NCBI RefSeq assembly: GCF_910592395.1
Contig: NC_088325.1
Coordinates: forward strand, 10,046,109-10,110,108
Origin: Lineus longissimus
Taxonomy: Eukaryota > Nemertea > Pilidiophora > Heteronemertea > Lineidae
Length of the DNA stretch: 64,000 nt
Direction of reading: 5' to 3'
Under the pieces are notes generated by a model. It ran no database searches. It was not told the origin of the DNA and was given only the letters and a program-made list of their open reading frames with translations. Positions 25,035 through 63,801 of the stretch are shown in pieces. Within the stretch, counting starts at the first letter, position 1, and every line of letters starts with the position of its first letter. Made by a program: the position numbers and the translations under genes.

Positions 25035-25459
25035 CTACACAGGAACGGACGGATCATTGTTGCTAACGCTTCCAATGTCGCCAACAGAGGGTGCCTCACC
25101 CCCAACATGCACTCCCTCGTCCTCTGATATTGAATCTTTTTTCTGATTGACCTCCGCCAAGGAGGACTGCTGCGGTTCGAATTCCTTCGAACCAAACTCT
25201 GTCCTTTCGGTTGGGGGTGTGGTGCCGGATTTCGCAGTCGTCTGGGAACTATCGCCTTGGTTACTCATGTTCATTTCCTGTCCAGTTTCGGGCATTAAAA
25301 CGTTAGTTGAGTGGACCGATGGTGTACCCTCACGGGCCACGGCGTAGCCTTTCTTGTTTTTTACCCGATAGTGGACTTGCCAAATGACGAGGACAATGAT
25401 TAGGACAGAGATGATGGTGAGAATAATTGTTCCCACCGTCAGGCTGGAGTCCAGGCGAT
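25035..25459 (-). CDS. Gene A helix 3 and cytoplasmic tail exon
   Basis: One exon holds the third hydrophobic helix ([17 protein letters not shown]) and the entire tail through the stop. In genes B and C the third helix and the tail are on two exons. The tail is hydrophilic and has no Cys, so no zinc finger. Confidence 0.85.
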
Positions 25460-28400
25460 CTGAAAAAACGAATTTGTATTTGAATAAAGAGGTGTGCAGG
25501 GTTCAGGTGTTGACCGTCAGTTGTGTCACACTGTTTTTCAACGTTACAGGACCCTTGTCATGGTGAAAATTGCTCCACTGACTTTTGTCAGCTTGTCATA
25601 TAGCTATTCGAGTGGTGCCTGTCCTTCCATCCATCCATCCATCCACCCATCCATCGATCCATCCGTCCGTCTGTCCGTCCATCCACCAACCATCCGTCCA
25701 CCCATCCATCCACCCATCCATCCACCTATCCATACACCCATCCATCCATCCACCCATCCATCCATCCACCCACCCATCCATCCATCCATCCAGCCAAGGA
25801 AATGCCGCTGACAGAAATTTAGGCGCAATATATTGGCTATATTTCTGCCGAAAAAATGTGGTAAGTTTTGATTTATCCCGCTGTTGTCTCACAGGTTCAC
25901 AGTATTTCGAATGATTTTAAAGGCTGTCTACAAAACTTTAAGCCGTTTGAACATTACACATGTCTTTGTTATTCTTACGATGGCCTATAATAACTTTCAT
26001 AATAGACTTCTGTGATTTCTCTAACTTCTTATATTCTGCATATTGCCCAAATAAAGTATCATCTAGAGAAAACAAAATATCCCAGAACCCTGAAAACTGC
26101 ATGCCCTATCTTGCTGAAAACACTTTGGGCCACAGCTTCCTAAAAAGTGATATTTTCTCTGACAATACGTGAATTTGTTCTCAAAATACCTCTGGCCATG
26201 CAAGATCTTATTACAAAGGAAAAGGCTTTTCTTTTGTTTGCATCTGAAATGAGCAGATGCCAGTGATTTACTACTCGTAACTGGGTCAAGCCTGAGGGTC
26301 ATTCCAATGCCAAGAATGCGAAAATGAGTTCGATGGGATGTATTCTGAAAGCCTTTCTGGTAAACATATCTGACCTACTGTTCCCTCAAGCATGTTGGGA
26401 GATCTAACATTTGTGCAAGGTTTTGTGCTGTAGTCAAATTCTCAGCGCTTGAATTGCCGAAAGTTACATAAAATAGTTATATTGTCAAATTCTGTTGATT
26501 TTGATGTCATGGGTAATGAAAAACGTCACTGCTGACATCATGACGAAAGTATATAATGTTGACACCGTCGGTCAACCATTTTGTTTCATCCCACCACCAG
26601 GAGGTGCTGATTTGGAAAGAAATAGTCAGCTTTACCTGTAGATTTCATTCATCGTTTTGTTGCCAGTAGAGCTTCTTGCAATATCGCAGTCTGCAGACGA
26701 GGTTTATTGTCGAGGTTGGTTGGTCCACAGCACTGCGATATTTTAAAGATAGGCTCCCACCCAAAATCGAAATATTTACAAAGTAGGGCAGAATTTGCCT
26801 GAGGTGAAAACAATGTCAGGTGAGGACTTAAGCGACGATCATCTGACCAGAGGGTGTACAGGGAGCATATTGACTGCAGCATTATCGTCACTGTGATGCT
26901 TACCTGTGCAGTTGACTGACTCGCAGTTCTTCATGATGTAGCTGATGTAGCCGCGGCTTGCCTGAGTGACCGCTACCCCTATTAGGGCCAGGAGAACGAT
27001 CAGTGCTACAATGCCGACTGTAATCAGAATGCAGAGGAAACCTCGCTGGCCATTGGGAGCTGTGAAAGGTGAAGAAGTAAAAATATTAAAGTATGATGTG
27101 ATCACGTAATTGTGTTTTTTCCAGCTTTCCCATATACAGAAGCTTTGCCCAAATAGTGCTTTTTCCAATTTCCTTAGCACAGATTCCTTGCCCAAAAACA
27201 GTGTTTTCCCACTTTCATTTACAAATCCTTGCCCAAATAGTGCTTTGCCCACTTTCCTTTGCACAGATTCCTTGCCAAAAATAGTGCTTTTACAGTCACA
27301 AAATCCTTGCCCAAATAGTGTTTTTCCTGCTTTCCTATGCACAGATTCCTTGCTCAAAAATAGTGCTTTTCCAAACTTTCCCGTGTACAGAATCCTTGCT
27401 CAAATAGTTTTATCCCCTGCACAAAATCCTTGTTTTTAATACTGCTTTTTCTGCTTTACCATTTATGGAACCCTTACCAAAATGATGCTTTTCCCAACTT
27501 CCCATGCACAGAATCCCTTGCCTGAGGGTTAGGGGGTGGGGGTTAACAGGAGCAGCTACCGACCAAACCAGTTAACCTTTGACCCCTGACATTGGAAACA
27601 GGGAAGTTGATAAGAGAGGATGCGAACTCTTAATCTCTTGATTTTGAAGCTGGCAACCAAGCCACTACACCACCGTAATCCCCTATTCTGTGCAAGCTGT
27701 AGAAGACAAGTTCAACTCACGAGGAGATTGATGGGATATGAGTAGAGGCAACCTCAAGTCATAGCCACCATCTTGGCAGAGAGTTCTGAAATCTTTAGAG
27801 AGTTGACTGCCTGAGTGGTGCTGTGGTGACACTGATGTTTATCTGTATCACCTGATGGTGTGTACCACCTCTCCCATGCGTGCGACAGCCTCAGCAAGCC
27901 CATGACCCACACAGGCAACAAAGGTCATGGCCCACATAGGCAACAAAGGCCATTACCCACACAGGCAACAAAGGTCATGACCCACACAGGCAACAAAGGT
28001 CATGACCCACATAGGCAACAAAGGACATTACCCACACAGGCAACAAAGGTCATGACCCACATAGGCAACAAAGACCATTACCCACACAGGCAACAAAGGT
28101 CATGACCCACATAGGCAACAAAGGCCATTTCCCACACAGGCAACAAAGGTCATGACCCACATAGGCAACAAAGGCCATTACCCACACAGGCAACAAAGGT
28201 CATGACCCTCATAGGCAACAAAGGCCATGACCCTCACAGCCAACAAAGGTCATGACACACATAGGCAACAAAGGTCATGACCCACACAGGCAACAAAGGT
28301 CATGACACACATAGGCAACAAAGGCCATTACCCACACAGGCAACAAAGGTCATGACCCACATAGGCAAAAAAGGCCATGACCCACACAGGCAGCAAAGGC

Positions 28401-29371
28401 CATTACCAACATAGGCAACAAAGGTCATTACCCACACAGGCAACAATAGACTCTTTCACCAGTCTCCTCCATTCACACATTACAGAGACTGGTACTTAAT
28501 AATAATAATGATATTGAGTTCTCATGTAGCACTTTTCCATGTGTGCCTGATCAAAGCGCTTTTGGGATATCATATTGACGTCATTTCACTTGTCATGGCT
28601 TCAGCTTCTGGTGTCCGATCACTTGTTTTTCACAGAGATGGGTAACCTCGAGAATGTGAATGATCAGGAATACCAGAGTGCTCAGTATGGACAGTGTACC
28701 CACTGAATGCACTGAAAATATTTGGCCCGCCTCTGGTAAATCAATAAAGCTGTGCGGCAGATAGGGCAACAAAGCCCATGACCCACACGGGCAACAAAGC
28801 CCATGACCCACACGAGCAACGAAGACCCACACAAGCAACAAAGCTCATGATCCACATAGGTTACGAAGCCCATGAGACATATGGGCAACAAAACCCATGA
28901 CCCACATTCATGTAGGCAATGCCTGAGCCTAAGTCGAAAAGCAGAGGAAGAAAATGACGACTCTGACTGTACCTTGTTCTGTGACCTGCCTCCTCCAGGT
29001 GTAGATTGCATAGATGATGATGATGATGCAGACCAGGTCAACTACTGCTACTATGATGAAGCATATCACGAGAGGCTGGACAGGACATTCTGGATTTCCT
29101 GAAATCGTGGACTTTGAATTTAATAGCCGAAATGTTCTCAAGGGGCCACAAACCTTTCAATTTTGCCTGTTGTGTTCCCTCTGAATATCCCTAGCCCTCA
29201 CTTTCACCCACTAAATCTCATTGCTGCAAGATCAAATGCAGCAACGCCTTTGCATTACAGATCTTGTGGCTCGTGGCAAAAACAAGTGGTTAGGAATAAA
29301 CTGTTGTTGAAGACGGACTGATCTTATTTTATGGCACTGCACGTTTCAGTAAAAACCTCTAATACATGTAC

Positions 29372-29428
<57 letters not shown>

Positions 29429-32400
29429 TATATAGCATAATTCCGTGACACTATAGTTCTCGCTCAAAGCGCTTTGGGATATCATATTATTACCCCAGTC
29501 TCCACAGAAATCAATCAGGGGTTTCAAGGAGCAACCAGAAGGCGCTCACTTGAACTCGACCAGTAGGGGAACCAAGCAGTGACTCGGCCGGGAGTCGAAC
29601 CCACTTAGTGTTTGTTCAAGACATAAATACAAGGGAGAAGAACCCAGAGCAACACTCTTTTATGATGTCACTTGTTTCCAAAGAGAGGTAAAAAACCTAC
29701 CATCCTGGCAGCACACTTTGAAAATTGGCTCTTCCCCAGTTCCTATTTCGTCGTCGACATAAAGGGAATATAGTCCATATCGGTTCCACGGACACTGGAA
29801 CGTTTCGTTGAAAATTGTTGTAATGTTTTCGAATCGATATGTTACTTTGTCTGTTCCAGTGTAGCATCCGGTTGGTGTCCGGTTTGGCTGAACAAATGTT
29901 ATCTTCTTTCCCCTATTTTGGGCGATGGATAACGAACTGTCTTTTGTTTGCTGGAACTGAATTTAAAGAATTGTTTTTAAGAGTTGTTAGCCAGAACATT
30001 CCATGCTGATAGGTTAATCTGGTTTCTTTTTCCCCTTCTCCGTGAAGTGGTACCTTGTTTATAATTACTGGTGGTCCAGGAAAACAGAAATGCAATTGTA
30101 CACAATGCCGTAGTGCAGTTATTATGCTTACAAATTTGCTGAAACTTAGTATTTGCTGTCTTTGTATCTGTCTTCACAACAGGAACTTAGGACGTATTTA
30201 CGCAACTGGATATTTTCAAATTCAAGTAAAAATTTAAAGTTTTTAACTGACGACGTAGGCCTTTAACATCCCTGGAGCACTGCGGGATGCTGTTGCGCAT
30301 TGTGCAGTGTTAACTGTGAAAGTGCTATAGAAAAATGCCAAACTTTTACTTTTGATGGTTTGTCATCGTACCCACCTTCCACCTCCACTGAAACTCTCTC
30401 TTTTTCCCCGGAGAGGTACACCCGCAGTCAAGCTCCACTCCGATAGGTTCCCTCTGTTTCTGATCGGTAATCGTCAGGAGGGCGCCTTTCTTGCACGTCC
30501 TGATGACCTCTGAGGAACTCCCACCAGTGACATAGCTGCAGTTATTACAGGGTGCTGAAGTAAGAGACGGAGATCATATGAGTCGTAGTCCCACCTATCA
30601 TAAAACCCCGTGTTTTTTCAAGACCCGTGTCTTCGCCGTGTGTCAAAAAACCCGGGGCGCACTTACACCTATCAGTGGTGTTAGATAATGGTTAATAGCC
30701 CCGGCGACAGGTGCGCTGTAGGTAGGGAGCTCTCCTGTGTTTATCTTCCCATTGGAGGGGAATTTCGCATGCGCAATACCGAGGCAACTACACCGCGCCA
30801 TCTGTCGCCGGATCTTAGAACTTGCAATTGCCGTGTCTATTCAGATTCCACCTATCAAAAAACCCGTGTTGAACACGGGTCTAAATTAGCCCCCGATTAG
30901 ACACGGGGATTTGACACACGGGTCTATTTAGACACGGCAATTCATAGGTGTAAGGGCAAAAGACACGGGGATTTGATAGGTGGAAGTACGACTATTGTTT
31001 GGCTGAATTAAAGCTAACTGGTCGCTTACTGCCAGCAATGCCTCCTATTGAAAGCTGATTCTCTAATGCCAGGCGTTTGGTGAGAAGGCAGTTTGTACCT
31101 TATATCTAACTAGCTAGCGGCTAACCAAGCGGTCGCATCGCAAAGAGGTTACCAGCGGGCCTCGAACCTTCGACCTTCCGTTCACGAGGCAGACGCCTTA
31201 ACCACTAGGCCATCGAGATCGGTATATATGCAATTCGAAAATTTACTTATTCAAACACAAATTAAAAATTTTTAAAGACCACTGTCGATCTTTAAAGTGA
31301 CACTTAACAAGTAAGAACCTGAAATCTATGTAAAACAAATTTGAAAGGTAAAAACGAAAAACACGTACTCTTGACCGATAGGTAATATTGCAGTCCCCCG
31401 GACTGACACGTGCAATTGTACTTCCCAGGGTCATTCGGTTCGACAACAAATCTCAACGTATAGACGTTCGCCTCGAGGCTGACGTTAAACTTTTTGATAT
31501 ACTTGGACACGACGATGTCATCCTCTGACATCACTTCGCTGCCGCGCTTCCAGTGAAGTGTATCCGTCGACGTTTTTGACGAGACGTCGCATTTTAGTTC
31601 GGCGATTTCTCCGACTGCGTAATTGGGTGTCAGGGTGCCACCCGGTAGGAGCTTTGGGGGGCATAGTGCGTCTGTAAAAAAAGTGTAAAAAAGTAACCTG
31701 GCTGTGGGAGGGAACGGGATAATGAGATTGGGGCCATCATGAGTCATTTAGGCCAATGGCTGTTGTCACAGCATTTCTGCCCGGATTGATATAAAGGGGG
31801 GGGGGGGTTACCCAAAAAATGTATTTTTTAATTACTAACCTAATCAGGCCCCCTCCCCCCTCCGCACACACACACCCGATATGTTTGCACATGAAATTAT
31901 CGAGGGACATGGGCCTGGTTTTGCTATGATGGGCCATGGTTAAGGGCAATGTATTACAATGATTTTCTTTTTCATCTCAACAAGCTGGCCGAGGAGAAAA
32001 AATGCATTGCGCATGTTGCATAGGATAATGCATTTTGCCATATATCGAACGGAATCAGTACAGCTGTTGTTGATACATGCAGCTGGTGCCTGGATCAGAA
32101 TGATGCTATAAAATTAATCACCGGTGGTCCAAGTAAATAGAAATACAGCTACACACAATGTCGTAGTGCAGTTATTATGCAAACAAATTTGCTCAAGTAT
32201 TTGTATATCTGTCTAGACAACAGCAATGTTGAAATTTACATTCAGTGCATATTTACGCAATTGGAGATTTTCCAATTCAATTACAAATTCAAATTTTCAA
32301 CGAACGGCATAGGCCTTTTAAAATAAAATCCAATATATCATGTATATGAATTGGCTTTCTGAGCATCACAACCGCTGTCCACAGTACATCTTGGGCCTTT

Positions 32401-38987: not shown

Positions 38988-39509
38988 TTACAGATTGTAA
39001 TCAAAGACCTCTTTGTTGCAGTAAGGGCAGAACGCAACAGATTTCTTCATCAATTCAGTGGCGCATGATTTACAAACTACTTTATCGAGACAGGGTGTGA
39101 GGTACCCAAGGATTGGATTTTCCAAACACACCATGCAGAGTGTTTGGAAGTCTGTCACTGGTATCCTACACACTGGGCAGTTTGCTTGTGTGTTTTCAGC
39201 TTTATCTTGCATGCTCTTGGCGCAAGAATTGCAAACAGCCACGTGTTTGCAGGGTTTGAAATAAACTTGTACAGGATTCTTACAGCAAATCGTACAAAGC
39301 TTCGCATTCCGGCGTTGTGCTCCAGGAAGGATATAGTCATTTTCAGTTTCTTTTTTACGTTGATGTGGCAGAACGTTTTCATAATCCTTCTGGATGTTCG
39401 GATGAGCGAGTTTGGTGTTAGTTGGAGCAGTTGCCTCTCCTTCATCTGGTGGAGGTGTTCTTGAGTCAGTCGTTTCAGGGATGTTACTAAAATTTGGGTT
39501 TTCTTGCCC
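38988..39509 (-). CDS. Gene B cytoplasmic tail exon with two RING fingers
   Basis: 173 residues. The first 70 are Pro/Thr/Glu-rich with tyrosines in DYENVLP and NDYILP. RING 1 is C-x2-C-x11-C-x-H-x3-C-x2-C-x14-C-x2-C (tail residues 72-114). RING 2 is C-x2-C-x11-C-x-D-x3-C-x2-C-x11-C-x2-C (125-164), with Asp where His is expected (tail residue 142). Spacing up to the sixth ligand is like the IAP/MDM2 class of RINGs. The reading continues upstream of the Val codon at 39240, so the RING region is not a separate small gene. Confidence 0.92.
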   Translation of the reverse strand, partial: GQENPNFSNIPETTDSRTPPPDEGEATAPTNTKLAHPNIQKDYENVLPHQRKKETENDYILPGAQRRNAKLCTICCKNPVQVYFKPCKHVAVCNSCAKSMQDKAENTQANCPVCRIPVTDFQTLCMVCLENPILGYLTPCLDKVVCKSCATELMKKSVAFCPYCNKEVFDYNL

Positions 39510-42500
39510 CTAGAGAAAGGAATAATATGATCATTGATTTTGATAGCATCACACAGTCATCATTTAATATTCTTCAGCATGACAATTCACACTCCTTAAT
39601 CAAATAAGAAGAAGGGTAACTATTCCTCTGTGCCGCCTGCTGTATCTGCCATAGAGGGATATTTCAGTTGGGTGGCAAGGCTTTCCAACTTCTTCTTATC
39701 ACAGCTTCTCCCTGAAGAAGGTCCTCACAATTAAGAGATAATGACATAAAAACTCGCATTTCATGCATTATTTAGCCCCAATATGGAAGTTTTGAAGCTG
39801 AAATAGACTTATGTATACTCGCGGCTATGGACATAAATTGAGGTCTCCTCAAGTGGTCTTGATTAGACAACCAAGGAACTACTGTAAGGTGTCAATAATT
39901 TCTTTTCTAAAACGACTCAAAGCTAATTTTTGCCACCAAATCAGAACCAAGCGTTCCGTGGTTGTAACATCAATGACTGCTGGGAGAAAAGCACGGCCTA
40001 ACATATTTTCTGTTACATTCACTGACATCCTGTCCTGTGGCAGTGGCCTTTCATAATGAGCAAATTTGTAGTTCTGTTACAATCAACTGCTTGTCCTCAA
40101 TCTCACTACATACCCTGCCAGCAATCTTTATCGAATCCATCAATCAAAAAAGGCCTTTCCATGCATTTTCTGGGACCAAGGCACAATTATTTCAGGCAGA
40201 ATGAGATAAAATACTGACCTTAACCATATGATTTCCTTTTGGTGCTTCTGTCTTTTTTAACCAACATAGGAATACAATGCTGACAATGATGGCCACAATA
40301 GCCAAATTCGTGACCATAATAATGCCGAACAAAGTACCCACTCGAAGGGGCGGTGCTGAAAAAGAGGGTTTGAAAATTTATTACACTGTGCAGGACTGCA
40401 CAAAATGGGTTCTTCCATTATTGCTTTGTAAAAATGCTTGTTTCATGATAAAAAAGGTAATAACTGCTCCTCTGTTATAAAATTCCCACAAAAATAGTTA
40501 CACATTAACTGGATATACCGTTTTTGATCACAAGATTGTCCAATGCTGAGAGCAGTTTTTTAGTCTATCATGTGGCTGAACCAGCTTTCTTCATTTGTTC
40601 AGGTGCACCATCTAAAGGGTGTTTACATTTTTCCACTTTAGCACCCGAACGAATTCATAGAACATGTAGGAACAGAAATGATTTTTCTAAAGTTTGAATT
40701 TCCTGCTCTTGTATAGTTGCCAAGGTTGTGGGTTCAGACCCACTTCAGGGCACCACTGGCAAAACACTCTGATTTTGTTTGATCATTTTTTTCACTTGTA
40801 AGTTTATGTCATATTTTCTTTCTTTTGAAAAAATTTGGTTGGTGGCCATCTTTGAAATATTCTTTAAGGCCATTTTAAAGCTGGATGTTGCCAAAGTGAC
40901 TACATTTTTATGGTTATTGTTTCTTATAAGTCTCCAATACTTATCACCCAGGCTCTTAAATTTCACTGGTAAGTTGCACATTTTGTCATTATTTGTCCAG
41001 GAGTCTCAGGATGTCAACAAAATCGAGGTTGAAAGTGACCTACCTACAAATACATGCTGAAAATACACTGACCCATGTATTTTAGCAGAGTGCCTAGGCC
41101 CTTGGGCCTTTTGTTTAATTGAACTTCTTTCTCTCGTGAATTAGCTAGATATGCATTCTAGAAGACCTTTTTTGCGTTCAGACTTTCTTGAGGCGCAAGC
41201 TAGGCAGTTAGTCTGTTTTGGGCAATGATGTTGGCTGTCCTATAGAGTTTCCCACAGATATCCAGAGCTTTTATTGTGAGGGTGGTGTCTTCTAGCCAAT
41301 ATTTTGTGGTATGATCATCTAAAAATGTCTGTGGAAAAATTGTATGCAAAAAATAGCCATGACATAAAAATTGTTACCTACCTTCGCGGGTGAAGCCTTT
41401 GGTGCAAATGCCTCCCAGGCCAAGAGCTACACCAAGAACCGCTATGATCCCCACTATAAGCAAAGTTATGAAGATACATTTCGTGTTTATTTGCCTGTTG
41501 GCATCTGGAAAAATCAATGCAGAGAATAAGTTTGGTATATGTCATGTCCCTGTCCTCCCCTCTTGAAGCTGCCAAAGAAAAGATCTCTGGCCATGGTTTT
41601 GGTTGGTTTGAATGGGAGTTTTAAAAATCCATGAGAGGTGGTGAACATTTTCGTACTGAACATGGTGGTTTCATTCTACAGAATTATCATAATTGGCGTC
41701 ACAGACCTAGTGGCTCCATACTTCCACTTTTGGAAGTGGCAGTGATAGACTGTTCGGAGCAATCAAAAACAAGAGGTCTGGAGTTTGTTCCTGTCTTATC
41801 TTCTTTGGGAGTGGCTAAGGCCTTATGCAACTTTTGGGAGGAAGAGGGAAGAAAAGGGGTGATTATGGGAGTTCCAAACATGTTCCTGTTGCTGTGTCTT
41901 CTGCCTAAAAAATTGGCGCTGGTGCAGTGGCTTCATTTTTTATTGATATGTCTCATTGCATCACTACATTAATTCCGCTGTTTGATGTGCAGAAACATTG
42001 TGGGAACATGTTTGCTTGGAGCTTGAAGATCACCGCATAAGTTACCTTTTTGTTTCGCACGTCTCGCAGCTAGAGTGACCAGAAGCCAGATGATAGTGCA
42101 GATGCCGGCATAGGCTAGGACATTACCTGATCCATAATTGTCACAATAACTGGCTGAAAAAAGGAAAGGATAGTTTGAGAAATCAGGTGCTGGGGCCCAT
42201 TGCTCAATCATCGGTGCCAAGCACTGTAGTTTTATCCTCCATTCAGATTATCTAAAGGTTGTTTTTGGACTACAACAGGATGTCATTTATGATAAAGTAA
42301 AGATTTTGAACCAGTAGTATAAAAAAGCCATTGTAGTTAAATCTTTGACAAAGCATCATAACTTGCAATACATGTTTTTTGTGGTTGGGATTATGGATTT
42401 AAGATGAGCAACAAGTATCATAGGTGAACTTCGAGGTTAGTGGCCCCCTCTAAGTCAACCCAAGAACAAGAAAATAAAGCATCAATTTGAACTTGGACAA

Positions 42501-45500
42501 GAACTTGGACAAGAACCTGGACAACTACAGGCAATTGGACATTGGCTTGTCTCTTTGTATGCATGTACTCTTGGACACACCCAAGTTTTCTCTTGGTTAT
42601 AATGCCCTTAATACTTCCCTTAATAATGATGATTGTATTGAGAACTATAAACGCAGCGTAGGGCAACAATAGTTTTCACAGGCTTTAGTGGTGATGCCTT
42701 AGCCTCATTGCAATAAGAAAAATCCTTTCCTTTTCTATATCCCCGGTACTGCTTTTCAAGATGGTGGCAACTTACTAGTACCAGAGGTGTTGTAAGGAAG
42801 GAAGTCAGCGCCTCTAGTGTCAAGATTGATAGATCTATGTCACTTTTCTGCCAAAAATACCCCCTCCAGCTGTTTATCAGTTCTGAGACAATACCACCAT
42901 TGAATATTCATAGGTTGGAGGGTCCAGGCCTATCATTTTTATCAATTAGACGAGTGCATGTTTTTAACTCTCAAGTACATATTTGGAGAGGTATTGAAAA
43001 AATATTTGCTGTGGCAAGTCTACAGATATAAAGAAATTATTTGATGAAAAAATTAATTTCAAATTTTGCTAATTTGGTAATAAGGGGCGTGTTTGGGATT
43101 TTTCTGCCAGTTGGCTGAAAAGAGTGGAAATATCAATGTCTGTCCAATTTGTCGATTATCAAAATATTTCTGTGGTCAACTACCAGTTTACTTTTCACCA
43201 TTTACTTGCCCTACTGTCCGGAATATCATATCAAAATTTCAGATTCAAAACCCCACGCAGTATTTGAGCTATCTCTTGATAGATTTTTCAACTCCTAGTG
43301 ATCATGCTAAGATTAAGGGGCCTAGTTGGTCACCACTTCTGTGATTGTAGCTTGTGTAAAACTTACCTTTGCAGGAGATGCTCATAATTGTGGTGAACTC
43401 CTCCGGCTTTTTCTCCTCCACCTCATCGATGTAAAAATTGTATGTTTTGTCTATCTCCGCAATTGGGCACTTGAATTCTACATTGGCAAAAGATCCGAAA
43501 ACATTTCTGTACCGATACGTCACGCTTCCTTTGCCAGTGTAGCATCCAATAGGCGTCTTGGTAGAATCTTGATCTTGAGTTCCATTTACAGATCGGCTTG
43601 GCAAAAGGTCGCTTAAGCTAGGGTCCTGCAATAAGATTCGAGGTTGGGGAGTTTTGACGAAAACAAATCAGTTTTAAAAATCAACTCTTTCAATATAATT
43701 GACATAAGTTACAGGCACATTCGAAATTACTTCATTATAACACCTTATGACATTTCTAGTGGAGGTAATTTTGATTTGCCAACATTGATATTAGCAAGTT
43801 GTGTTCGTACGCTACATAGACAGTGTACATATATTTAATCAGTTGTAGCAATTGATTGAGCAACTACACACCAAGCTTTATTCTCTGTAATTAGAGAATG
43901 TTGCAATAAGGTATCTTGGCATAATGATGCGCAGTGAAGATAATAAACAAAACATTCGGTTTAAATTAGGGGAGCAGAGGACATTAAATTCATTCCACCC
44001 TCTAATTAACTGAATACAGTGTCTAATTATGTTAATAAATTATGCAAACTTCTCACCTGTTATGCCTAATTGACTACCTAAGTTAACACAGGAAGCCATC
44101 GTTTTTGTATACTGTCCCTAATTGCGAGGTGATTGGATCAAAAAGTCACTATGGCAGGTCGGCAATTCAGAGTAGAGAGGTGTCTGCGTCACTGAGGTTT
44201 TGGCTGAAGAAAACCACTTAGAAAAAAACAGGACTGAACGGACGTGTCCGTAATGGGGCGGTGTTCGCCTGGCAGAGGTGTCCGCAAGGGGACGTTCTAC
44301 TGTATACATTACTTACATCTGTACTGGTGCCATACCATTTTCCTTGGAAAGTCCTGTTGACTTCTGGCCAAGTGCAGTTGCAGTCCAGGCCAACTTTGAA
44401 ATTGAGAGGTGTATTTGCTTGAAGAGGATAGCTTTTATTTGTCTTCAAGTAATTGAGAACTACTGGAGATGTCGTCGTATTTGTTTGGCGGACATTTTCT
44501 CGTTTATTGCAGGGGCCTAAAAAAATTAATAGAACATTAGGATGGAAGCCATCTTGGTTTCTTACGAAACATTTTGGCTAGATTTCTGCCGATAACTTCT
44601 CTCTTGCATCTTTTTTGGACGCCAGTATTCACAAGCACTCAAAGTAATCGGCACACATGTATGTAGACGTTTTGGGGTGAAATATTCCTTTGGAAAGGTG
44701 TTGTGTATTGCCAGAGATTTGGAAATATGCAACAATACTCAAAAAGCAGCGTTTTGCCCTAAAATGTGTATTACCTTCTATGCGCATTGTCATTGCTTGA
44801 GTGCCTACAGGTATTATGGTGTGTTCACACTGGATGCGAATTGAAATCGAATTCCGTAGAGCGCTCTCCGGAATACGAATTGGTTAATCCAGTTTCAGAA
44901 CGGTCGCGTCACACTGGCCCGAATACGCATTCAAATCGGTTTAAAACGCGCCACACTCAATGCATACTAACGACGCACCATCTATTATTATTATTATTAT
45001 TATTTATTAACCTCCCATATGGGAGAATAAAATTTACAAGTACAAAACATATAAGTATATAATATCACAGTATCACACAGTCATTATTAACAAGTTAAAA
45101 TCGCGTAAGGTGCTTGACCATTTCCATCTCCCGGCCATGCCTATTGCCAAAGTTCGGGTCAAAGAGGAGTGTCCTCAGCGAGTCAACACCACCGTCGCTA
45201 AATGCGGAGAATCCCGGCCTCGCCCTCGAAAACGAGGTCAAAACCGGGGAAACCCCGCCGCGACGATGTTGCTGACCAGCGTACCTTTGACCAACGAACT
45301 GGCGGCAACATACCTTGTCAGGAAATGGAAATGCAAGTCACGTGCAAGGGAGTTGATTTTTCCCTATTCGATGGCATAACAAAAAACGATTTGAGTTAAT
45401 GAGATCATTTAAATACATCAGTTAACTAGTTCGGAGCACTAGTTCCCGCGGTCAAAGGTCACTTGCCATGCGCCAGGCGCATGCGCAGTGCGATCGAAAA

Positions 45501-48500
45501 CCTTCATTCGTATCAAGCGCGTCACACTTGAAATCTCAATACGGTTTCGTTGATTCGGATTAGCTGATTCGCATTCAATTCGGTTTAAGAACCGTGTTGG
45601 TCAAAGCGGATTGAGATCGGTATGAACCGAATTGAGTGTGACGCCCCAATACGTATCAACGTTTTAATTCGAATTCAATTCGTGTTAAAACCCCAGTGTG
45701 ACCACGGCATTGGCGTGCAAAAAGAATGCAAGAGAAGAAAGCATGGATACCGGTGATGACCAATGTGCGTTCTCACCAAAAACGTCCTGCTGGTCCTAAT
45801 GCAGCTTTGTCATATTGGTAGGGTATATGCTTTGGTCATTCTCCTTGCAAATCAGTTATCTCAAATGAAAATCAGTATTGCTTATCCTCCCATATTTTTG
45901 GAATTGATATTCGGCTTGCTGCAGGGGGATGGCATTGCTGGCCAGTTACATAACTATACTTGCTAAAAGAAATGAATTTTGTATGTGATCTTGATATTTC
46001 CAATCGAAAGGATCTGTTTTAAGTTCACGTTTGCCTTCCAAGTTGCAAAAATTGCCAACAAAATCATTTGGTCACTAACATTACCCATCACAGAAAATGT
46101 TATACACGAGATGCTGTTGCTCATCAACGTGTACAATTTCTGTTACATCCCAGAGCTGACCTCTTTTGAAGGACTCCGTAACTAAACAGGAGTGACTGGC
46201 ATCAAGAATTGACAGAACTCTGCAAATAAGTAATTTCTATTGCTGCCGGTGCTGAACAGTAAAATAAAGCTTGACAATATAACAATGTTTAATACATTTA
46301 GGTCAAGCGACAACCACTTTTTAATTAAAATTTTCATTTTGTCACAGCTCCTTTCTGGTCACAGTGAGAGAAATGACTTGTTTACAGAGCGCTTTCATGA
46401 TTGGCCTTTGGGCCTTAGCCCTCTTGTTTTGAGGCTTAAGTGCTTACGTCTTATCCAAACTCTGAATCTTATTCCACCTGTTGAGCATGTACAGTTATAA
46501 GTCCCTGCATCGTCTAACTCTGCTATCCATGAGATTGTGTAGAGAACTGTCCCTTTCGCATTCTTCCCATAAGATACATTATATTTAGACTGAAATTTTG
46601 GAATTACACCATCATCCTCGGACATCACGGCTTTATCAGTCTTCCAGTAGACCACATCCGTTGTTTCGTTGACCGCAGACAAATCACATTTGAGTGTTAT
46701 CTTTTCCCCAACTGTAACTATATGTTTGGTATCCGGTGTTTGTCCATCTAAATATTTCTCCTGACATGTTGCAGAACAATTTACTGAAAGAAACAAGAAA
46801 AGCATTGTATGGTTGTTGGCTTGACTTTTTGTTACAATTAACAGATTATTTCATTAGTGCTATTGAAATGACGATCGTAAAAAATTAACCTATAACATTA
46901 AAAAAAACCCTGCCCATATGCATGTACAGTAGAACCTCTCTATTGAGGACACCTTTGGGACTGACAAGTGTCGTCCTTAATAGAGAGGTGTCCTGATTAG
47001 GGAGGTCAATTTGAATGGAAATAACCAATTTGTGACTAAAATGAATGTCCCTAATACAGAGGTTGTCCTTGATAGAGAGGTGTCTGCTGTATCACCAATT
47101 TTTATATAAGTTGCCTTCTTTCAACCCCCATGTTGCATTTTTCCAATGGATTGTTATGGTTTTGGGTATCAAAATGAACCTATGCTCTCCCCTTAAAGAA
47201 TTAAACCATGTATTATTGTAAACCACTAACCTTTGGGGGCATTTTATATTTTGCAGATTTTACGAATAACCTCAATTCACAAATTGGAAAAAACGGAAGG
47301 AAATTTTGTTATCGCAAATTGCAATAATAAAATGTTGCTTAAATTTGGCATATTACTGTATTAAATGGGTATTTGACGATATATAAAATGCAGAATGTTC
47401 ACCTTCCCTCAAATGATCTTCCTTGCCCAAAAAGACTGAAATGGGGGATTTAAGAGCCCTTTTTAGCAGGTTTGAGCTTATGAGGTCATGTCTTGTCTGG
47501 CATTCGATGTCTGTCGTCCGGCATTGTCAATGTTGTTTGTCAATGATGGTGGCACGTTTGATCACATAAAATTTGTTGTGTTGTTGTCTTCTGACAATAT
47601 GACTTCACAAACAAAAAAAGGATCATCCTGATTTGACCTACTTTCTGGGCTCTAAGCGGTCACCTGAAAATTATATTTTTTCAGTATCTCATGAACTGTT
47701 ATAGCAAGAATCATGAAAGATTCACTGCTTTGGATAGATGAGACTTCTTTTTAAGGTCACAGACACCAAACACTAATAAATATTCATCAAAGGTGGCACA
47801 TTCCGTCACTTTTCGTCCACGACTTTTAAAGTTTTATGCGTAGAGACCTATTAGGCATATCTACATGTTCAAAGAGATAGGTCAATGTGACCTACTTTGC
47901 CTGTGTAAGTAGGTCAATAGGTCATAAAATCATATAACGGTCATTTATCCTGAAACCTTCGTTATGTAATCTTCTTTTGTATATCATTGATTTATCTGAT
48001 CAAGCTTAACATAATACTTGAAAGAATTTGACTTTAACCTACTTTTGTAGGGCACAGAGGTCAAACTCTAAATTTCACTTGTCATTACTTGTCCTACACT
48101 GTTCAAATCTGATATAAGACACCCATTGGTCATCTCTACACACTGACAAGATTTAGGTCAGTGTGAAATACTTTGTTGGGTCAATAGAGTCAGACACATT
48201 CAATACATGCGTAACCATAGTGGACGGTCATGACAGTGTTCACAGGTTACCATGGTGAAAATGGTGGTATCAACCAATGTATACCAGCCAAGGGGGGTGC
48301 ACTGCGGAAACCAGTATGTTCACATTGTGGTCGGTATTCCCTATATTGGCTATCAGTCATGTTCAATGGTTAAGATCATTCAAAGTGAAAGTTCAGTAGA
48401 ACCTCCCTTAGCGGGGGTCTGTGAAGTTGGCTCCCAGTTCCAAGTTCCCAGTTCCTTATTTGTGCCCATTTTGAAACATGGTATGTTTGGGTACGAATAA

Positions 48501-50972
48501 GGAACTAGCAAATGGGCTAAGCATTTCCCAGTTCCCAATTCAAATTTCTTTCAAATATTAACCCTCCACAGTCCGATAACTCAACTTGGTGGTTTTAACC
48601 CTTTCCTACCAAGCTCCCGATTCAGCTATCAGTGACTTTAACCCTTTCTAAGCCCATTTCCCGGTTCAAAACACCAGCTCCTTATTCGTCTCAACTCATT
48701 TTAACCCTTTATAACTCCATTTCCCGATTCATTTACAGTCACTTGAACCCTTTCTAACGCTATTTCCCGGTTCAAAATGCCAACTCCTTATTCGTCTTAA
48801 CGTATTTTAGCCCTCTATAACTCCATTTCCCGATTCAAATGCTAGCTCCCGATTCAGCTACAAGTCACTTTAACCCTTTCTGACTCCATTTCCTGGTTCA
48901 AAATGCCAGCTCCTTATTCGTCTTAACTCATTTTAACACCCTATAAGTCCATTTCCCGATACAAATACTGGCTCCCGATTCAGCTACATGTCACTTTAAC
49001 CCTTTCTAAGCCCATTTCCCGGTTCAAAAGCCAGCTACTTATTCGTCTTAACTCATTTTAACCCTCTATAACTCCATTTCCCAATTCCCGGAGCCAGCAT
49101 TTGAATCGGGACATGGACTTATAGAGGGTTAAAATGAGTTAAGACGAATAAGGAACTGGCATTTTGAACTGGGAAATGGAGTCAGAAAGGGTTAAAGTGA
49201 CTTGCAAATGAATGAAATGGAGTCAGAAAGTGTTAAAGTGACTTGTAGCTGAATCGGGAGCCAGTATTTGAATCGGGAAATGGAGTTATAGAGGGTTAAA
49301 ATGCGTTAAGATGAATAAGTAGCTGGCTTTTGAACTGGGAAATGGGCTTAGAAAGGGTTAAAGTGACTTGTAGCTGAATTGGGAGCCAGTATTTGAATCG
49401 GGAAATGGACTTATAAATGGCCAAAATGCGTTAAGACGAATAAGGAGTTGGCATTTTGAACCGGGAAATAGCGTCAGAAAGGGTTAAAGTGACTGTAAAT
49501 GAATCGGGAAATGGAGTTATAAAGGGTTAAAATGAGTTAAGACGAATAAGGAGCTGGCTTTTGAACTGGGAAATGGGCTTAGAAAGGGTTAAAGTGACTT
49601 GTAGCTGAATTGGGAGCCAGTATTTGAATCGGGAAAGTGACTTATAAATGGCCAAAATGCGTTAAGGCGAATAAGGAGTTGGCATTTTGAACCGGGAAAT
49701 AGCGTCAGAAAGGGTTAAAGTGACTGTAAATGAATCGGGAAATGGAGTTATAAAGGGTTAAAATGAGTTAAGACGAATAAGGAGCTGGCTTTTGAACTGG
49801 GAAATGGGCTTAGAAAGGGTTAAAGTGACTTGTAGCTGAATTGGGAGCCAGTATTTGAATCGGGAAAGTGACTTATAAATGGCCAAAATGCGTTAAGACG
49901 AATAAGGAGCTGGTATTTTGAACCGGGAAATGGGTCAGAAAGGGTTAAAGTCACTGATAGTTGAATCGGGAGCTTGGTAGGAAAGGGTTAAAACCACCAA
50001 GTTGAGTTATCGGACTGTGTCCAATTCCCTCCCAATTACGAACAGTAGGCAAAAACAATGGTTTCCCACGTGCGCTTGGAGAGTCGAGTAGGCCCGACAG
50101 GTGTGATATTTGCGTAATTAATCAACGTAATTACCCCATGGCATTGTGTTTTTGTATCCTAATTAAGCCGACGCATTTGTTTACTCATCTTTTCAACTAA
50201 TCACATAGGCCTATTGTGTCAATGGACACTCATAAATCCACGGGGTTTTGTCAGTGTTGCGGCGAATATGCGTTAGTAGAGAAATTAGAAAAAATTAACT
50301 ATTAATCAAAGGTGGCTGATGGACAGAAATTATGGTGTTTTTTCACACATTATGACATGTCGAGGAGATTTTGCAATAAAAGGGGCACCTTTTACTATAT
50401 TCACTCTCTGAGTTCCAAAGTAGCTCACGTCATTCAACGCAACATCACAAGCAAATACCGATCATCCAACAGGTTTAAAGTTTCTACGCTAGATGTCGTC
50501 ACAGAGAAAACCAAGACCTGCAAGGCGGGAACTTCAAATCCACCTATCGGACGATTTGGCATAACCTCTCTATTGCGGACACCTGGGCCCAGTCCCATGG
50601 GTGTCCACAATAGAGAGGTTGTACTGTACTGGTCTCTTTTCTGGTTAATTATAACTTTTGCTGCTCTTTTACCCACAGAGCAGTATGCAAAAAGACACTG
50701 CTAAAATACTGTTTCCCCTGCAGCGCGGTGGATTCCCCTTTTTAATACTTTTGACTATATACACTAAGTCATCTTGCTGTCATCTTTGAACATGTTTGTG
50801 ACAAGAGTGAGATCCCCACCAACTACAGTATAAAAAAACTCAATAAGGTTGAGCACAAAGTATTCTGCATTTTGATAAGAGGACAGCTGCAGAGGTTACA
50901 CGAAGTCTACTCACCATTTGGAATCAAAAGCACCAGGCCAACGCCCAGGGTCAACATTCTTACCAAAGACAT
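38988..50972 (-). CDS. Receptor gene B: Ig domain, three membrane helices, tandem RING tail
   Basis: Eight coding exons in order: 50915-50972 (signal peptide), 46448-46783 (Ig), 44317-44516 and 43367-43625 (membrane-proximal domain), 42046-42153 (helix 1), 41382-41504 (helix 2), 40219-40355 (helix 3) and 38988-39509 (tail). Every border is AG/GT and every phase agrees, giving 580 residues. The Ig domain is about residues 20-131, helices about 293-312, 328-350 and 367-393, RING 1 479-521 and RING 2 532-571. Several N-glycosylation sites lie in the ectodomain. Positive residues follow helix 1 (ARRAKQK) and helix 3 (LKK), which fits N-terminus outside and tail inside. RING fingers of this C3HC4 type usually recruit E2 enzymes for ubiquitin transfer. 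I infer a surface receptor that ubiquitinates itself or a partner. I know of no described family with this order of domains. Confidence 0.88.
40219..42153 (-). CDS. Gene B three single-helix exons
   Basis: Exons 42046-42153 (108 bp), 41382-41504 (123 bp) and 40219-40355 (137 bp). The first two start and end in phase 1 and can be skipped without a shift. The third starts in phase 1 and ends in phase 0, and is needed to reach the tail exon. Each codes one hydrophobic helix. The same three-exon plan is present in gene C, and in gene A with helix 3 fused to the tail exon. Confidence 0.88.
40730..41115 (+). repeat. Dispersed element ending 'gcccttgggccttttgttt'
   Basis: The 3' end motif is shared with sequences near 13890 and 35500 and with copy C at about 59910-59935. 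It lies in the gene B intron between helices 2 and 3. Confidence 0.5.
43367..44516 (-). CDS. Gene B membrane-proximal domain (two exons, 44317-44516 and 43367-43625)
   Basis: The two exons are joined in phase 0 and code about 153 residues. Conserved with gene A are RPCN/TPCN at the start, LDCNCT/LDCGCT, a W near the exon junction, TPxGCYTG, VTYR, and FxCP later. The cysteines suggest a disulfide-bonded fold, but the residue pattern is not a standard Ig domain and I cannot assign it to a family. Confidence 0.85.
44814..45710. repeat. Foldback element in gene B intron
   Basis: The left end 'atggtgtgttcacactggat' pairs with the right end 'cccagtgtgaccacggcat', and the adjoining 'gcgaattgaaatcgaattc' pairs with 'gaattcaattcgtg'. 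The interior has an ATT run (44986-45003) and a CpG-rich 300-bp part with open frames that look like by-products. Confidence 0.8.
46448..46783 (-). CDS. Gene B Ig-domain exon
   Basis: A 336-bp phase 1-1 exon. It holds the core Cys (LKCDL), Trp (VYWKTD), VMSEDD, and DDAGTYNCTC before the last strand. It aligns with the Ig exon of gene A over its whole length. Confidence 0.9.
46925..47090. repeat. 'ttaaggacac' element in gene B intron
   Basis: Begins 'cagtagaacctctctattga' and ends 'gatagagaggtgtctgctgt'. It is in the first intron of gene B. Confidence 0.85.
48567..50019. repeat. Large asymmetric palindrome of tandem units
   Basis: The outer ends are exact complements ('cacagtccgataactcaact' at 48567; 'gttgagttatcggactgtg' ending at 50019). 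Both arms are built from a roughly 60-bp vocabulary ('aaccctttctaa.ccatttccc', 'ttcgtcttaactcatttta', 'gctcccgattcagct'). The left arm is about 520 bp and the right about 930 bp, the right having extra tandem units. The turn is near 49085-49100. It lies in the first intron of gene B. Confidence 0.9.
50560..50632. repeat. 'ttaaggacac' element (short copy)
   Basis: An inverted pair 'aacctctctattgcggacac' and 'tgtccacaatagagaggttg'. It lies about 280 bp from the signal peptide exon of gene B, inside its first intron. Confidence 0.7.
50915..50972 (-). CDS. Gene B signal peptide exon
   Basis: MSLVRM followed by a hydrophobic core (LTLGVGLVLLI), ending in phase 1 at 'gtgagt'. An in-frame ATG farther upstream (51090-51092) would add a charged 40-residue extension without secretory character, so the start just before the hydrophobic core is preferred. 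Confidence 0.8.
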
Positions 50973-51269
50973 CTTAGTCGATCTTACGGTTTGTTTCATG
51001 TCTGCCTCGCTAGTTGCTAACTTCCTGGTTGGTCTGTTTTTGATTGGTCGGGTGTCGAGGTCAGGTGACATGCCGAGTGTTGACTCGAGCATGCAAGGAG
51101 GAAGTGTTATGTAGGACTAGGCCTATGGAGTTAATGTTGTGTATATTGTGCTACCATCTTGGTACATTAGGACTGACTACCTATTGTGTGGACCTCTTGG
51201 GGAGTCATGAATAAATCATCGAGCATTCCTGAATTTTGTTGTCTCACAAGACTCGAGAGTAAATTGGGC

Positions 51270-57806: not shown

Positions 57807-58328
57807 TTACAGATTGTAATCAAAGACCTCTTTGTTGCAGTAAGGGCAGAACGCAACAGATTTCTTCATCAATTCAGTGGCGCATGATTTACAAACTACT
57901 TCATGGAGACAGGGTGTGAGGTACCCAAGGATTGGATTTTCCAAACACACCATGCAGAGTGTCTGGAAGTCTGTCACTGGTATCCTACACACTGGGCAGT
58001 TTGCTTGTGTGTTTTCAGCTTTATCTTGCATGCTCTTGGCGCAAGAATTGCAAACAGCCACGTGTTTGCAGGGTTTGAAATAAACTTGTACAGGATTCTT
58101 ACAGCAAATCGTACAAATCTTCGCATTCCGGTGTTGTGCTCCAGGAAGGATATTGTCATATTCAGTTTCTTTTTTACGTTGATGTGGCAGAACATTTTCA
58201 TAATCCTTCTGGATGTTCGGATGAGCGAGTTTGGTGTTGGTTGGAGCAGTTGTCTCTCCTTCATCTGGTGGAGGTGTTCTTGAGTCAGTCGTTTTAGGGA
58301 TGTCACTAAAATTTGGGTTTTCTTGCCC
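57807..58328 (-). CDS. Gene C cytoplasmic tail exon with two RING fingers
   Basis: 173 residues, nine of them different from gene B: tail positions 9, 12, 26, 57, 59, 66, 71, 142 and 143. Three synonymous changes were seen. All eight ligands are present in both RINGs. Confidence 0.92.
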   Translation of the reverse strand, partial: GQENPNFSDIPKTTDSRTPPPDEGETTAPTNTKLAHPNIQKDYENVLPHQRKKETEYDNILPGAQHRNAKICTICCKNPVQVYFKPCKHVAVCNSCAKSMQDKAENTQANCPVCRIPVTDFQTLCMVCLENPILGYLTPCLHEVVCKSCATELMKKSVAFCPYCNKEVFDYNL

Positions 58329-60971
58329 CTAGAGAAAAGAATAATATGATCATTGATTTTGATAGCATCACACAGTCATCATTTAATATTCTTCAGCATG
58401 ACAATTTACACTCCTTAATCAAATAAGAAGAAGGGTAACTATTCCTCTGTGCCGCCTGCTGTATCTGCCATAGAGGGATATTTCAGTTGGGTGGCAAGGC
58501 TTTCCAACTTCTTCTTATCACAGCTTCTCCCTGAAGAAAGTCCTCACTATTAAGAGATAATGACATAAAAACTCGCATTTCATGCATTATTTAGCCCCAA
58601 TATGGAAGTTTTGAAGCTGAAATAGACTTTTGTATACTTGCAGCAATGGACATAAATTGAGGTCTCCTCAAGTGGTCTTGATTAGACAACCAAGGAACTA
58701 CCGTAAGGTGTCAATAATTTCTTTTCTAAAACGACTCAAAGCAAATTTTTGCCACCAAATCAGAACCAAGCGTTCCGTGGTTGTAACATGAATGACTGCT
58801 GGGAGAAAAGCACGGCCTAACATATTTTCTGTTACATTCACTGACATCCTGTCCTGTGGCAGTGGTCTTTCATAATGAGCAAATTTGTAGTTCTGTTACA
58901 ATCAACTGCTTGTCCTCAATCTCACTACATACCCTGCCAGCAATCTTTATCGAATCCATCAATCAAAAAAGGCCTTTCCATGCATTTTCTGGGACCAAGG
59001 CACAATTATTTCAGGCAGAATGAGATAAAATACTGACCTTAACCATATGATTTCCTTTTGGTGCTTTTGTCTTTTTTAACCAACATAGGAATAGAATGCT
59101 GACAATGATGGCCACAATAGCCAAAATAATGACTATAATAATGCCGACCAAAGTACCCACTGGAGGGGGCAGTGCTGAAAAAGAGGGTTTGAAAATTTAT
59201 TACACTGTGCAGGACTGCACAAAATAGGTTCTTCCATTATTGCTTTGTAAAAATGCCTGTTTCATGATAAAAAAGGTAATAACTGCTCCTCTGTTATAAA
59301 ATTCCCACAAAAATAGTTACACATTAACCAGATATACCGTTTTTGATCACAAGATTGTCCAATGCTGAGAGCAGTTTTTTAGTCTATCATGTGGCTGAAA
59401 CAGCTTTCTTCATTTGTTCAGGTGCACCATCCAAAGGATGTTCACATTTTTCCACTTTAGCACCCGAACGAATTCATAGAACATGTAGGAACAGAAATTA
59501 TTTTTCTAAAGTTTGAATTTCCTGCTCTTGTATAATTGCAAAAGTTGTGGGTTCAGACCCACTTCAGGGCACCACTGGCAAAACACTCTGATTTGTTTTG
59601 ATCATTTTTTTCACTTGTAAGCTTATGTCATATTTTCTTTCTTTTGAAAAAATTTGGTTGTTTGCCATCTTTGAAATATTCTTTAAGGCCATTTTAAAGC
59701 TGGATGTTGCCAAAGTGACTACATTTTTATGGTTATTGTTTCTTATATTCTCCAATACCTATCACCCAGGCTCTTAAATTTCACTGGTAAGTTGCACATT
59801 TTGTCATTATTTGTCCAGGAGTCTCAGGATGTCAACAAAATCGAGGTTGAAAGTGACCTACCTACAAATACATGCTGAAAATACACTGACCCATGTATTT
59901 CAGCAGAGTGCCTAGGCCCTTGGGCCTTTTGTTTAATTGAACTTCTTTCTCTCGTGAATTAGCTAGATATGCATTCCAGAAGACCTTTTTTGCATTCAGA
60001 CTTTCTTGAGGCACAAGCTAGGCAGTTAGCCTGTTTTGGGCAATGAAGTTAGCTGTCCTATAGAGTTTGCCATAGAGGTCCAGAGCTTTTATTGTGAGGG
60101 TGGTGTCCTCTAGCCAATATTTTGTAGTATGATCATCTAAAAATGTCTGTGGAAAAATTGTATGCAAAAAATAGCCATGACATAAAAATTGTTACCTACC
60201 TTCGCGGGTGAAGCCTTTGGTGCAAATGCCTCCCAGGCCAAGAGCTACACCAAGAACCGCTATGATCCCCACTATAAGCAAAGTTATGAAGATACGTTTC
60301 GTGTTTATTTGCTTCTTGGCATCTGGAAAAATCAATGCAGAGAATAAGTTTGGTATATGTCATGTCCCTGTCCTCCCCTCTTGAAGTTGCCAAAGAAAAG
60401 ATCTCTGGCCATGGTTTTGGTTGGTTTGAATGGGAGTTTTAAAAATCCATGAGAGGTGGTTGAAATTTTCGTGCTGAACATGGTGGTTTCATTCTACAGA
60501 ATTATCATAATTGGCGTCACAGACCTAGTTACTCCATACTTGCACTGCTGGAAGTGGCAGTGATAGACTGTTCGGAGCAATCAAAAACAAGAGGTCTGGA
60601 ATTTGTTCCTGTCCTATCTTCTTTGGTGGTGGCAAAGGCCTTATGAAACTTTTGGGAGGAAGAGGGAAGAAAAGGGGTGATTAATCGAGTTCCAAACATG
60701 TTCCTGTTGCTGTGTCTTCTGCCGAAAAAAATTGGCGCTGGTGCAGTGGTCTCATTTTTGACTGATATGTCTCATTGCACACTACATTAATTCCGCTGTT
60801 TGATGTGCAGAAACATTGTGGGAACATGTTTGCTTGGAGCTGGAAGATCACCGCATAAGTTACCTTTTTGTTTCAGACATCCCATGGCTATAGCGAACAC
60901 AAGGTAGATGAAAACGAAGATGCCGGCCCCGATTAGGACAAAATGTAATTCATAATTTTCACAATAACTGG
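57807..60971 (-). CDS. Receptor gene C (partial): three membrane helices, tandem RING tail
   Basis: Four 3' exons are visible: 60864-60971 (helix 1), 60200-60322 (helix 2), 59038-59174 (helix 3) and 57807-58328 (tail with stop). Lengths and phases equal those of gene B. The signal peptide, Ig and membrane-proximal exons should lie beyond 64000. RING 1 equals that of B. RING 2 has the full C3HC4 ligand set, with His (PCLHEVVC) where B has Asp. The tail tyrosines are in YENV and YDNI, ten residues apart, an ITAM-like spacing. Helix 1 differs from B at 19 of 35 whole codons although neighbouring introns are almost identical. The role is inferred as for gene B. Confidence 0.88.
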
Positions 60972-62688: not shown

Positions 62689-63801
62689 ATCATCAAATAC
62701 GCTTTCCGTCATTGGCTGACATTACGCGCGTCACAAGGCATCTCCATGCCGCCCTATCATTTGCCAGTTCGGTCACGTGATCTATGTCAAAGTTTATGTT
62801 GATAGTAGCGAGGTCTGTTTTTATTTGGCTCATCCACGTGGTTCTTGGTTTGCCTCTGGGTCTTCTTGTCGGCTTTTAGAATTCATCTATGGCTTGTTTT
62901 GCTGGTGTTCCCTCTGGTAGTCTTAGGAGGTGTCCAAGCTAGTTCAGTCTTCTTCTTTTTACATCTTGGCTCCATGGGTGGGTTTTGGTTGTTTGGTACA
63001 GTTCTTGGTTTGAGATTCTGTCTGCTCTTTTGACATTAATTATTCTTCTCAGGAGGGTTCTTTGGAAGGTGTCGATTTTGTTTCCCAGTAGTTTCGTGAG
63101 GGTCCAGAGTTCACTGTTGTAAAGAAAGATGCTGGTGATGAAAGTTCTGAAGATGTTCATTTTGATTCTGGTTGTGGCTCTTGGGTTGGTGAAGTATTTG
63201 GATAGGGTGTTGAAGGCGTCCATGGCTAGGCCTTTTCTTCTCTTTATATCCTTTCCATGTCAAGGTGGCTTCCCAGGTATTTGCTTTTTTCCATTCCTCG
63301 TCTCCTGTTCGGCTGATGGTAAATTCTTCTGTTTTCTCTAGGTTGACATGGAGGTTTCTCTTCTTTAGTTTTGGTGGGATGTTTTCTTTGACGTAGCTTC
63401 TGATTCCTTTACTTGTTGTGACCCATCCTATATCGTCTGCATACTGTTGATCAATGTTGAGTTTCTTTGGCTGGGTTTGGTTGGTGATAGTTATGGTCTT
63501 GGAGATGTGGAGGGGTAATCTCTGGCTGTGGATTGGCTCTGTGATAGTTGTGATCAAGGAGGTCGGTGGTCTGGCTTCTTGAATGCACTTTGCAAAATAC
63601 AGTGTGAAGAGAATGGCGCTGGCGCAGTCTCCTTGTGGTGTTCCTATATTGGTTTTGAAATTTTCTCCGAAAGTTTTCCCGCATCTGACTTTTATTTGGA
63701 CATCTCGTAGGAGTAGATCAAACATATGGACCTCGTCTTCTTCTAGTACTTCTCCTAGGTCTTTGATTAGATCTGCTCGTCCCACTGTATCGAAGGCAAT
63801 G
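62689..63801 (-). mobile_element. 5'-truncated non-LTR retrotransposon inserted in copy C
   Basis: Absent from copy B. It is flanked by a 10-bp target-site duplication, 'tagcctcatt' at 62679-62688 and 63802-63811. On the minus strand it codes the later part of a reverse transcriptase: GTPQGD at about 63645, the YADD catalytic box at about 63435, then the thumb region with SELWTLTK and the C-terminal LGHLLRLPEGTP region. The frame shifts near 63240, and stops interrupt the region after 62945, so it is inactive. The 3' end is a short 'tgatgataatga' tail. The clade is not determined. Confidence 0.93.

Follow-up and report, generated by a model that had tools for sequence, protein, structure and literature searches.

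The predicted receptor genes described here, from Lineus longissimus, form a tandem family in which an excess of amino-acid change falls in the exons encoding the membrane helices. The window, the whole stretch of DNA that was analysed, is 64,000 nucleotides long (C19:10046109-10110108), and positions without a prefix are counted within it. The gene studied, gene A, is the predicted LOC135502043 on the minus strand (50972-38988), labelled "uncharacterized protein" by NCBI. It encodes a signal peptide, an immunoglobulin (Ig)-like domain, a membrane-proximal domain, three membrane helices and a tail, predicted to be cytosolic, that carries two RINGs. Four such RING-tailed copies, A to D, stand in tandem on the minus strand, 18.8 to 20.1 kb apart, and gene A is one of them. 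Between these copies the helix exons carry more amino-acid change than expected. The Ig exon alone has been homogenised by gene conversion among the RING copies and a RING-less sister gene, LOC135502040, as happens in paired receptors.

The cluster was charted with tblastn across a contiguous 214 kb of the chromosome and with exon mapping. Copies A, B and D are open; copy C has all eight exons but contains one stop, in its Ig exon (C19:10132720-10133082). In gene A, membrane helices 1, 2 and 3 are encoded by exon 5 (42046..42153), exon 6 (41382..41504) and exon 7 (40219..40355), respectively, all on the minus strand. The yardstick for base differences in these exons was the adjoining intron sequence, 250 bp per side. 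Between A and D, exon 5 differs at 29 of 108 bases and its flanking introns at 17 of 496 (p=1e-12). Exon 6 differs between C and D at 10 of 123 bases, with 2 of 500 in the introns (p=3e-6), and exon 7 between A and D at 10 of 137, with 7 of 500 (p=8e-4).

The differences are concentrated in amino-acid changes. When the contrasts A-D, C-D and B-D are pooled in a simple Nei-Gojobori count, the helix exons show 54.2 nonsynonymous differences in 824 sites (6.6%), 2.8 synonymous differences in 256 sites (1.1%) and 68 differences in 4494 bases of flanking intron (1.5%). The nonsynonymous rate exceeds both the intron rate (p=1.8e-14) and the synonymous rate (p=3.1e-4). Since the count skips stop codons, the codon of copy C's stop is omitted. 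In a permutation that keeps the base changes, the three contrasts give one synonymous case among 38 changed codons where 8.3 are expected (P=0.0011), and all seven contrasts give one among 45 where 9.9 are expected (P=0.0002).

The ectodomain exons (2 to 4), pooled in the same way, show no nonsynonymous excess (nonsynonymous 17/1844, synonymous 6/499, introns 92/4284), and diversification of the Ig domain is thus not seen. The RING exon likewise has no such excess (21/1236, 3/321 and 39/1500). For the signal-peptide exon the counts are 23/190 nonsynonymous and 15/62 synonymous, with copy D's exon 1 counted three times over; that exon and its flanks align poorly, 146 of 436 flank bases differing from A. 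The signal-peptide exon is hydrophobic yet lacks the pattern, so hydrophobic coding alone does not explain the excess in the helix exons. Compensating frameshifts behind the differences in exons 5 and 6 were rejected, as gap-permitting alignments of A with B in exon 5 and of B with C in exon 6 are gapless. A tblastn search of the 214 kb to E 1 found no alternative exon 5, whether B-like in A or A-like in B to D.

One explanation of these counts needs no selection. Here the protein is an ordinary receptor of adhesion or scavenger type, the RINGs serve only its own turnover, and the helices came to differ by local mutation or by conversion from an unseen donor. Self-ubiquitination of receptors is common, conversion is active in the cluster, and synonymous tests of single exons are weak. 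A donor of exon 5 could also be missed, given that a genome search with the A protein omitted exon 5 of B, C and D. However, either a donor or a mutational hot spot would be expected to raise the synonymous rate as well, and in the helix exons that rate is not above that of the introns; the two pooled permutation values tell against this explanation as well. It is judged quite unlikely.

Another explanation is the insulation of paralogues. In this model the helices form receptor oligomers, selection after duplication separated the helices so that copies do not mix, and the RINGs act on the receptor or its neighbours after ligand binding. Neighbouring copies whose ectodomains and tails are nearly the same might be expected to co-assemble otherwise, and the change does sit in the helix exons. 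Nevertheless, B and D are both open and have identical exons 5 and 7 and a single difference in exon 6, so these two are not insulated from each other. The most changed helix 2 exon, moreover, belongs to the broken copy C. Insulation is therefore considered unlikely.

The Ig exon has a different history. Exon 2 of gene A (46448..46783, minus strand) has a near-identical counterpart in LOC135502040. Between that gene and copy B, 369 columns align at 96.7% identity, comprising the Ig exon plus 21 bp before it and 12 bp after it, and other matches between the two regions reach at most 88%. Synonymous differences from LOC135502040, counted for A, B and D with C left out, are 0.06, 0.04 and 0.03 in exon 2, compared with 0.68 for each copy in exon 3 and 0.74, 0.70 and 0.70 in exon 4. 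An exon nearly identical between genes that are far apart in exons 3 and 4 was recently copied between otherwise old relatives. The Ig exon of gene E, a second RING-less relative, lies outside the homogenised set (43% identity to A).

Paired receptors have ectodomains kept alike by conversion and tails that differ. This arrangement is found here for the Ig exon; exons 3 and 4 are not shared. A precedent is the pair Siglec-11/16, described as paired receptors with different tails whose Ig exons are kept alike by conversion (PMC5701461). With an Ig domain kept alike in this way and membrane helices that diverge, the copies do not show the Ig domain as a variable recogniser.

The reading preferred here, tentatively and at somewhat less than an even chance, is that of a receptor-type ubiquitin ligase at the cell surface, with an Ig tip for a shared ligand, a ligase in RING1 and helices that choose membrane partners. 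The Ig-like tip would dock a ligand common to the RING-less sister receptor, in a paired-receptor layout, and the three helices would keep the RINGs in the cytosol. Of the two RINGs, RING1 would do the work of the ligase, and RING2, which is altered in copy A, would serve for dimerisation or as a scaffold. Partners gathered by the helices could then be ubiquitinated by RING1 and cleared from the surface. The divergence of the helices may reflect selection on the membrane partner, or the parasite antagonist, that each copy meets.

A more specific form of the idea, and a rather doubtful one, is that targets are recognised within the lipid bilayer by fast-evolving helices, the Ig tip being held constant through conversion with a sister receptor that would read the same ligand but have another output. 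If true, the combination of a uniform outer domain and diversified helices would mark intramembrane recognition as a target of conflict. Since the copies stand in tandem and two haplotypes are deposited, the idea of helix recognition is directly testable. The published genome describes 19 chromosomal molecules and these two haplotypes, GCA_910592395.1 and GCA_910592375.1 (PMC8593623).

That a change in a helix might alter the choice of partner is suggested by precedent. For MARCH1, a proline in the membrane segment of CD86 is reported to be needed (PMC8319528). In tetherin, selective pressure on the N-terminal and membrane regions has been attributed to viruses (PMC2912774).

Several points weigh against the preferred reading. 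The same sources report that viral MIR2, unlike MARCH1, does not depend on any particular sequence in the membrane segment of CD86 (PMC8319528) and that tetherin as a whole is neutral in primates (PMC2912774). Helices can be under selection without being what picks the substrates. The synonymous deficit is weak in exons 5, 6 and 7 taken individually (P 0.12, 0.05 and 0.06), and the statistics come from four copies of one haplotype, in non-independent pairs, with C broken. The near-identity of the B and D helix exons, mentioned above, means that divergence is not continuous; the exon 5 flanks of this pair show 16 differences in 500 bases, and their exon 8 has eight nonsynonymous changes and one synonymous. 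Finally, RING2 of copy A lacks its histidine, and charge leaves the topology unsettled, both of which are taken up below.

The gene model on which the argument rests is consistent throughout. Gene A has eight exons with intron phases 1,1,0,1,1,1,0, GT...AG borders in 7 of 7 introns and 580 codons without an internal stop, so that the eight exons with consistent phases claimed in a preliminary description stand. A protein search with the 580-residue product returned LOC135502043 at 100% identity across the full query. The NCBI model starts at 50999, 27 nt upstream of the ATG at 50972 chosen in that description, and an assembly from ATG 50999 equals LOC135502043 in 589 of 589 residues. Exon 1, with the signal peptide, accordingly spans 50915..50999, or 50915-50972 in the shorter form. 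The membrane-proximal, cysteine-containing domain is split between exon 3 (44317..44516) and exon 4 (43367..43625), and exon 8 (38988..39509) encodes the tail with its two RINGs and the stop, all on the minus strand. Copies B, C and D repeat these exons with the same phases, which chance would not produce.

It might be argued that the RING exon is a separate gene and its joining to the receptor an artefact of prediction, as the NCBI entries are themselves predictions. This is very improbable, and was rejected. The phase-0 join of exons 7 and 8 has usable splice sites in 4 of 4 copies, and NCBI predicts it for A and B as well, in models that agree letter for letter with the assemblies made here. 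The NCBI prediction for gene A thus also places the RING and Ig exons in one gene.

Tandem arrays occupy part of intron 1 in gene A (48615-49973), with units of 62-231 bp, whose two halves appear, by eye, to be inverted complements of each other. Rfam gave no matches at gathering scores.

The rest of the proposed receptor layout, namely signal peptide, Ig-like domain, membrane-proximal domain and three helices, holds as well. In the 580-residue form, hydropathy shows a signal peptide and membrane segments at residues 296-314, 330-348 and 373-391. The Ig-like domain scores below the Pfam cut-off in A (Ig_2, 23.9 against 27), as it does in protein P0003 (26.8 against 27) and in gene E (Ig_3, 29.4 against 30). 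The framework motif of the Ig superfamily is Cys-Trp-DxGxYxC, and A contains it as LKC, YWK and DDAGTYNC; it is retained in LOC135502040 (LRC, YWK, DDAGSYNC) and in gene E. A three-sequence Ig profile searched against PDB to E 0.01 gave nine matches, all Ig proteins (E 1.3e-4 to 0.0062), among them LRIG1, IL-1R1, basigin and VEGFR2, with a stretch that passes alone only in the four IL-1R1 rows. For the domain of exons 3 and 4 in A, a PDB search to E 1 found no relative; its counterpart in gene E is touched by a weak match to V-set (E 0.0078), without a stretch passing alone.

The topology is probably one with the Ig-like domain outside and the RINGs in the cytosol. Nine of the ten N-glycosylation sequons precede the first membrane segment. 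By the positive-inside rule, basic residues mark the cytosolic side of a membrane protein, and they are found in the loop joining helices 1 and 2 and where the tail begins, in keeping with this arrangement. Some basic residues occur as well in the loop joining helices 2 and 3, which would lie outside, and for this reason charge does not settle the question.

In the tail, PF13920 (C3HC4_3) matches the whole gene A protein in two stretches (71.2 bits against a cut-off of 27), or 51.0 bits for RING1 and 39.7 bits for RING2 when scored singly. RING1 (39150..39305, minus strand) is a complete C3HC4 with an arginine following the last cysteine pair, a position that matters for contact with the E2-ubiquitin conjugate; RING2 has an asparagine there. 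RING2 (39006..39143, minus strand) reads PCLD in A where B, C and D read PCLH, an aspartate thus replacing the histidine ligand. Of the two C3HC4 RINGs first proposed, both are recognised by the profile and one is intact in its ligands in copy A. They are IAP-like in the broad sense of PF13920 only: by sequence, RING1 comes closest in the PDB to CBL and CBL-B (E 3e-5 and weaker), with IAP RINGs at poorer scores, and RING2 to MEX3C (E 1.5e-4). A role as ubiquitin ligase (E3) is plausible for RING1; the part in immune or self recognition that the preliminary description also suggested is conjectural.

Copy B is LOC135502042, and its exons 5 to 8 fall inside the window on the minus strand: exon 5 with helix 1 (60864..60971), exon 6 with helix 2 (60200..60322), exon 7 with helix 3 (59038..59174) and exon 8 with two RINGs (57807..58328). 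Exons 4 to 1 lie beyond the window. Intron 4 of gene B contains a 231-residue minus-strand open frame (63111-63806) resembling reverse transcriptase, with a YADD motif that is taken here as a mark of that enzyme.

The two RING-less relatives adjoin the copies. Both have A's exon order, A's phases from exon 2 to exon 6 and three hydrophobic regions. LOC135502040, on the plus strand, runs from C19:10002490, outside the window, into the first 11 kb of the window, where its exon 8 (9245..9302) and the longer of two frames of its last exon (10149..10656) are found. At 10123-10656 the open frame of the last exon is not the one that NCBI isoform X2 uses, and it has no Pfam match. No Pfam family, and hence no RING, was found for the long last-exon frame, and no RING in protein P0003. 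The gene also contains, at C19:10033311-10035364, 18 matches in tandem, most of them spaced by about 113 bp, to the beginning of the helix-1 exon and its splice acceptor, the whole exon being present only in the last.

Gene E lies on the minus strand at 31671-25035. It consists of exon 2, Ig-like (31369..31671), exon 3 (30376..30554), exon 4 (29701..29956), exon 5 with helix 1 (28973..29098), exon 6 with helix 2 (26904..27059) and exon 7 with helix 3, a RING-less cytosolic tail and the stop (25035..25459). Its first exon was not found. A Pfam search to E 1 listed 14 families for it, none of them a RING.

Within the reach of a six-frame genome search, the family was seen in this cluster only. 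A whole-genome scan with PF13920 gave at least 68 matches, and among those listed, two sharing one 173-residue frame occur in copies A to D only. A six-frame search with the whole A protein gave at least 35 matches, 33 of them in the cluster; the other two, on C1 and C17, are weak and cover the RING1 region only. Both counts are lower bounds, and since exon 5 of B, C and D is unlisted, the six-frame search is not exhaustive.

Protein searches for relatives in other species, made without a search of other animals' genomes or of contig collections, returned only L. longissimus: three proteins for the whole protein, three for the first 410 residues of the RING-less sister and two for the RING tail, among 8000 (those sharing most words), 2091 and 24 scored candidates, respectively. 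These searches require shared five-residue words and could miss fast-evolving relatives in other animals. The open-licence literature, where absence is weak evidence, yielded no description of an Ig-multi-helix-RING family, in agreement with the preliminary description, which knew of no family joining an Ig ectodomain to two cytosolic RINGs. Both receptor-type ligases and paired Ig receptors have precedents, but no gene family combining the two was met in these sources.

One of the closest comparisons is with RNF43/ZNRF3, of the PA-TM-RING family, which have a signal peptide, a folded ectodomain and a cytosolic RING. Gene A resembles them in these features and in the idea of a ligand-facing ligase. 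It differs in having an Ig-like instead of a PA domain (PA is not one of the 12 Pfam families listed for it to E 1), three helices instead of one, and two C-terminal C3HC4_3 RINGs.

The MARCH and viral MIR proteins also carry a RING on a membrane anchor. Theirs is of the RING-CH (C4HC3) type, which is absent from the Pfam families listed for gene A, where C3HC4_3 matched instead; gene A further differs in its C-terminal RINGs, large Ig ectodomain and three helices. For MARCH1, as in the reading preferred here, the membrane segment of the substrate is reported to matter (PMC8319528).

Tetherin/BST2 is not known to have an Ig domain or a RING. Its likeness lies in a membrane segment with positively selected sites, and it is described as having one membrane anchor and a GPI (glycosylphosphatidylinositol) anchor (PMC2912774).

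Like the paired receptors Siglec-11/16, CEACAM and CD300, as far as these have been described in the sources used, the cluster has an Ig exon homogenised among members with different tails. Unlike them, it shares one exon only, has three helices, carries RING tails rather than signalling of the ITIM/ITAM (immunoreceptor tyrosine-based inhibitory or activation motif) type, and belongs to an invertebrate. Judged by its sequences, the family appears to be a putative receptor ligase of the membrane that shares features with paired Ig receptors and falls outside both PA-TM-RING and MARCH.

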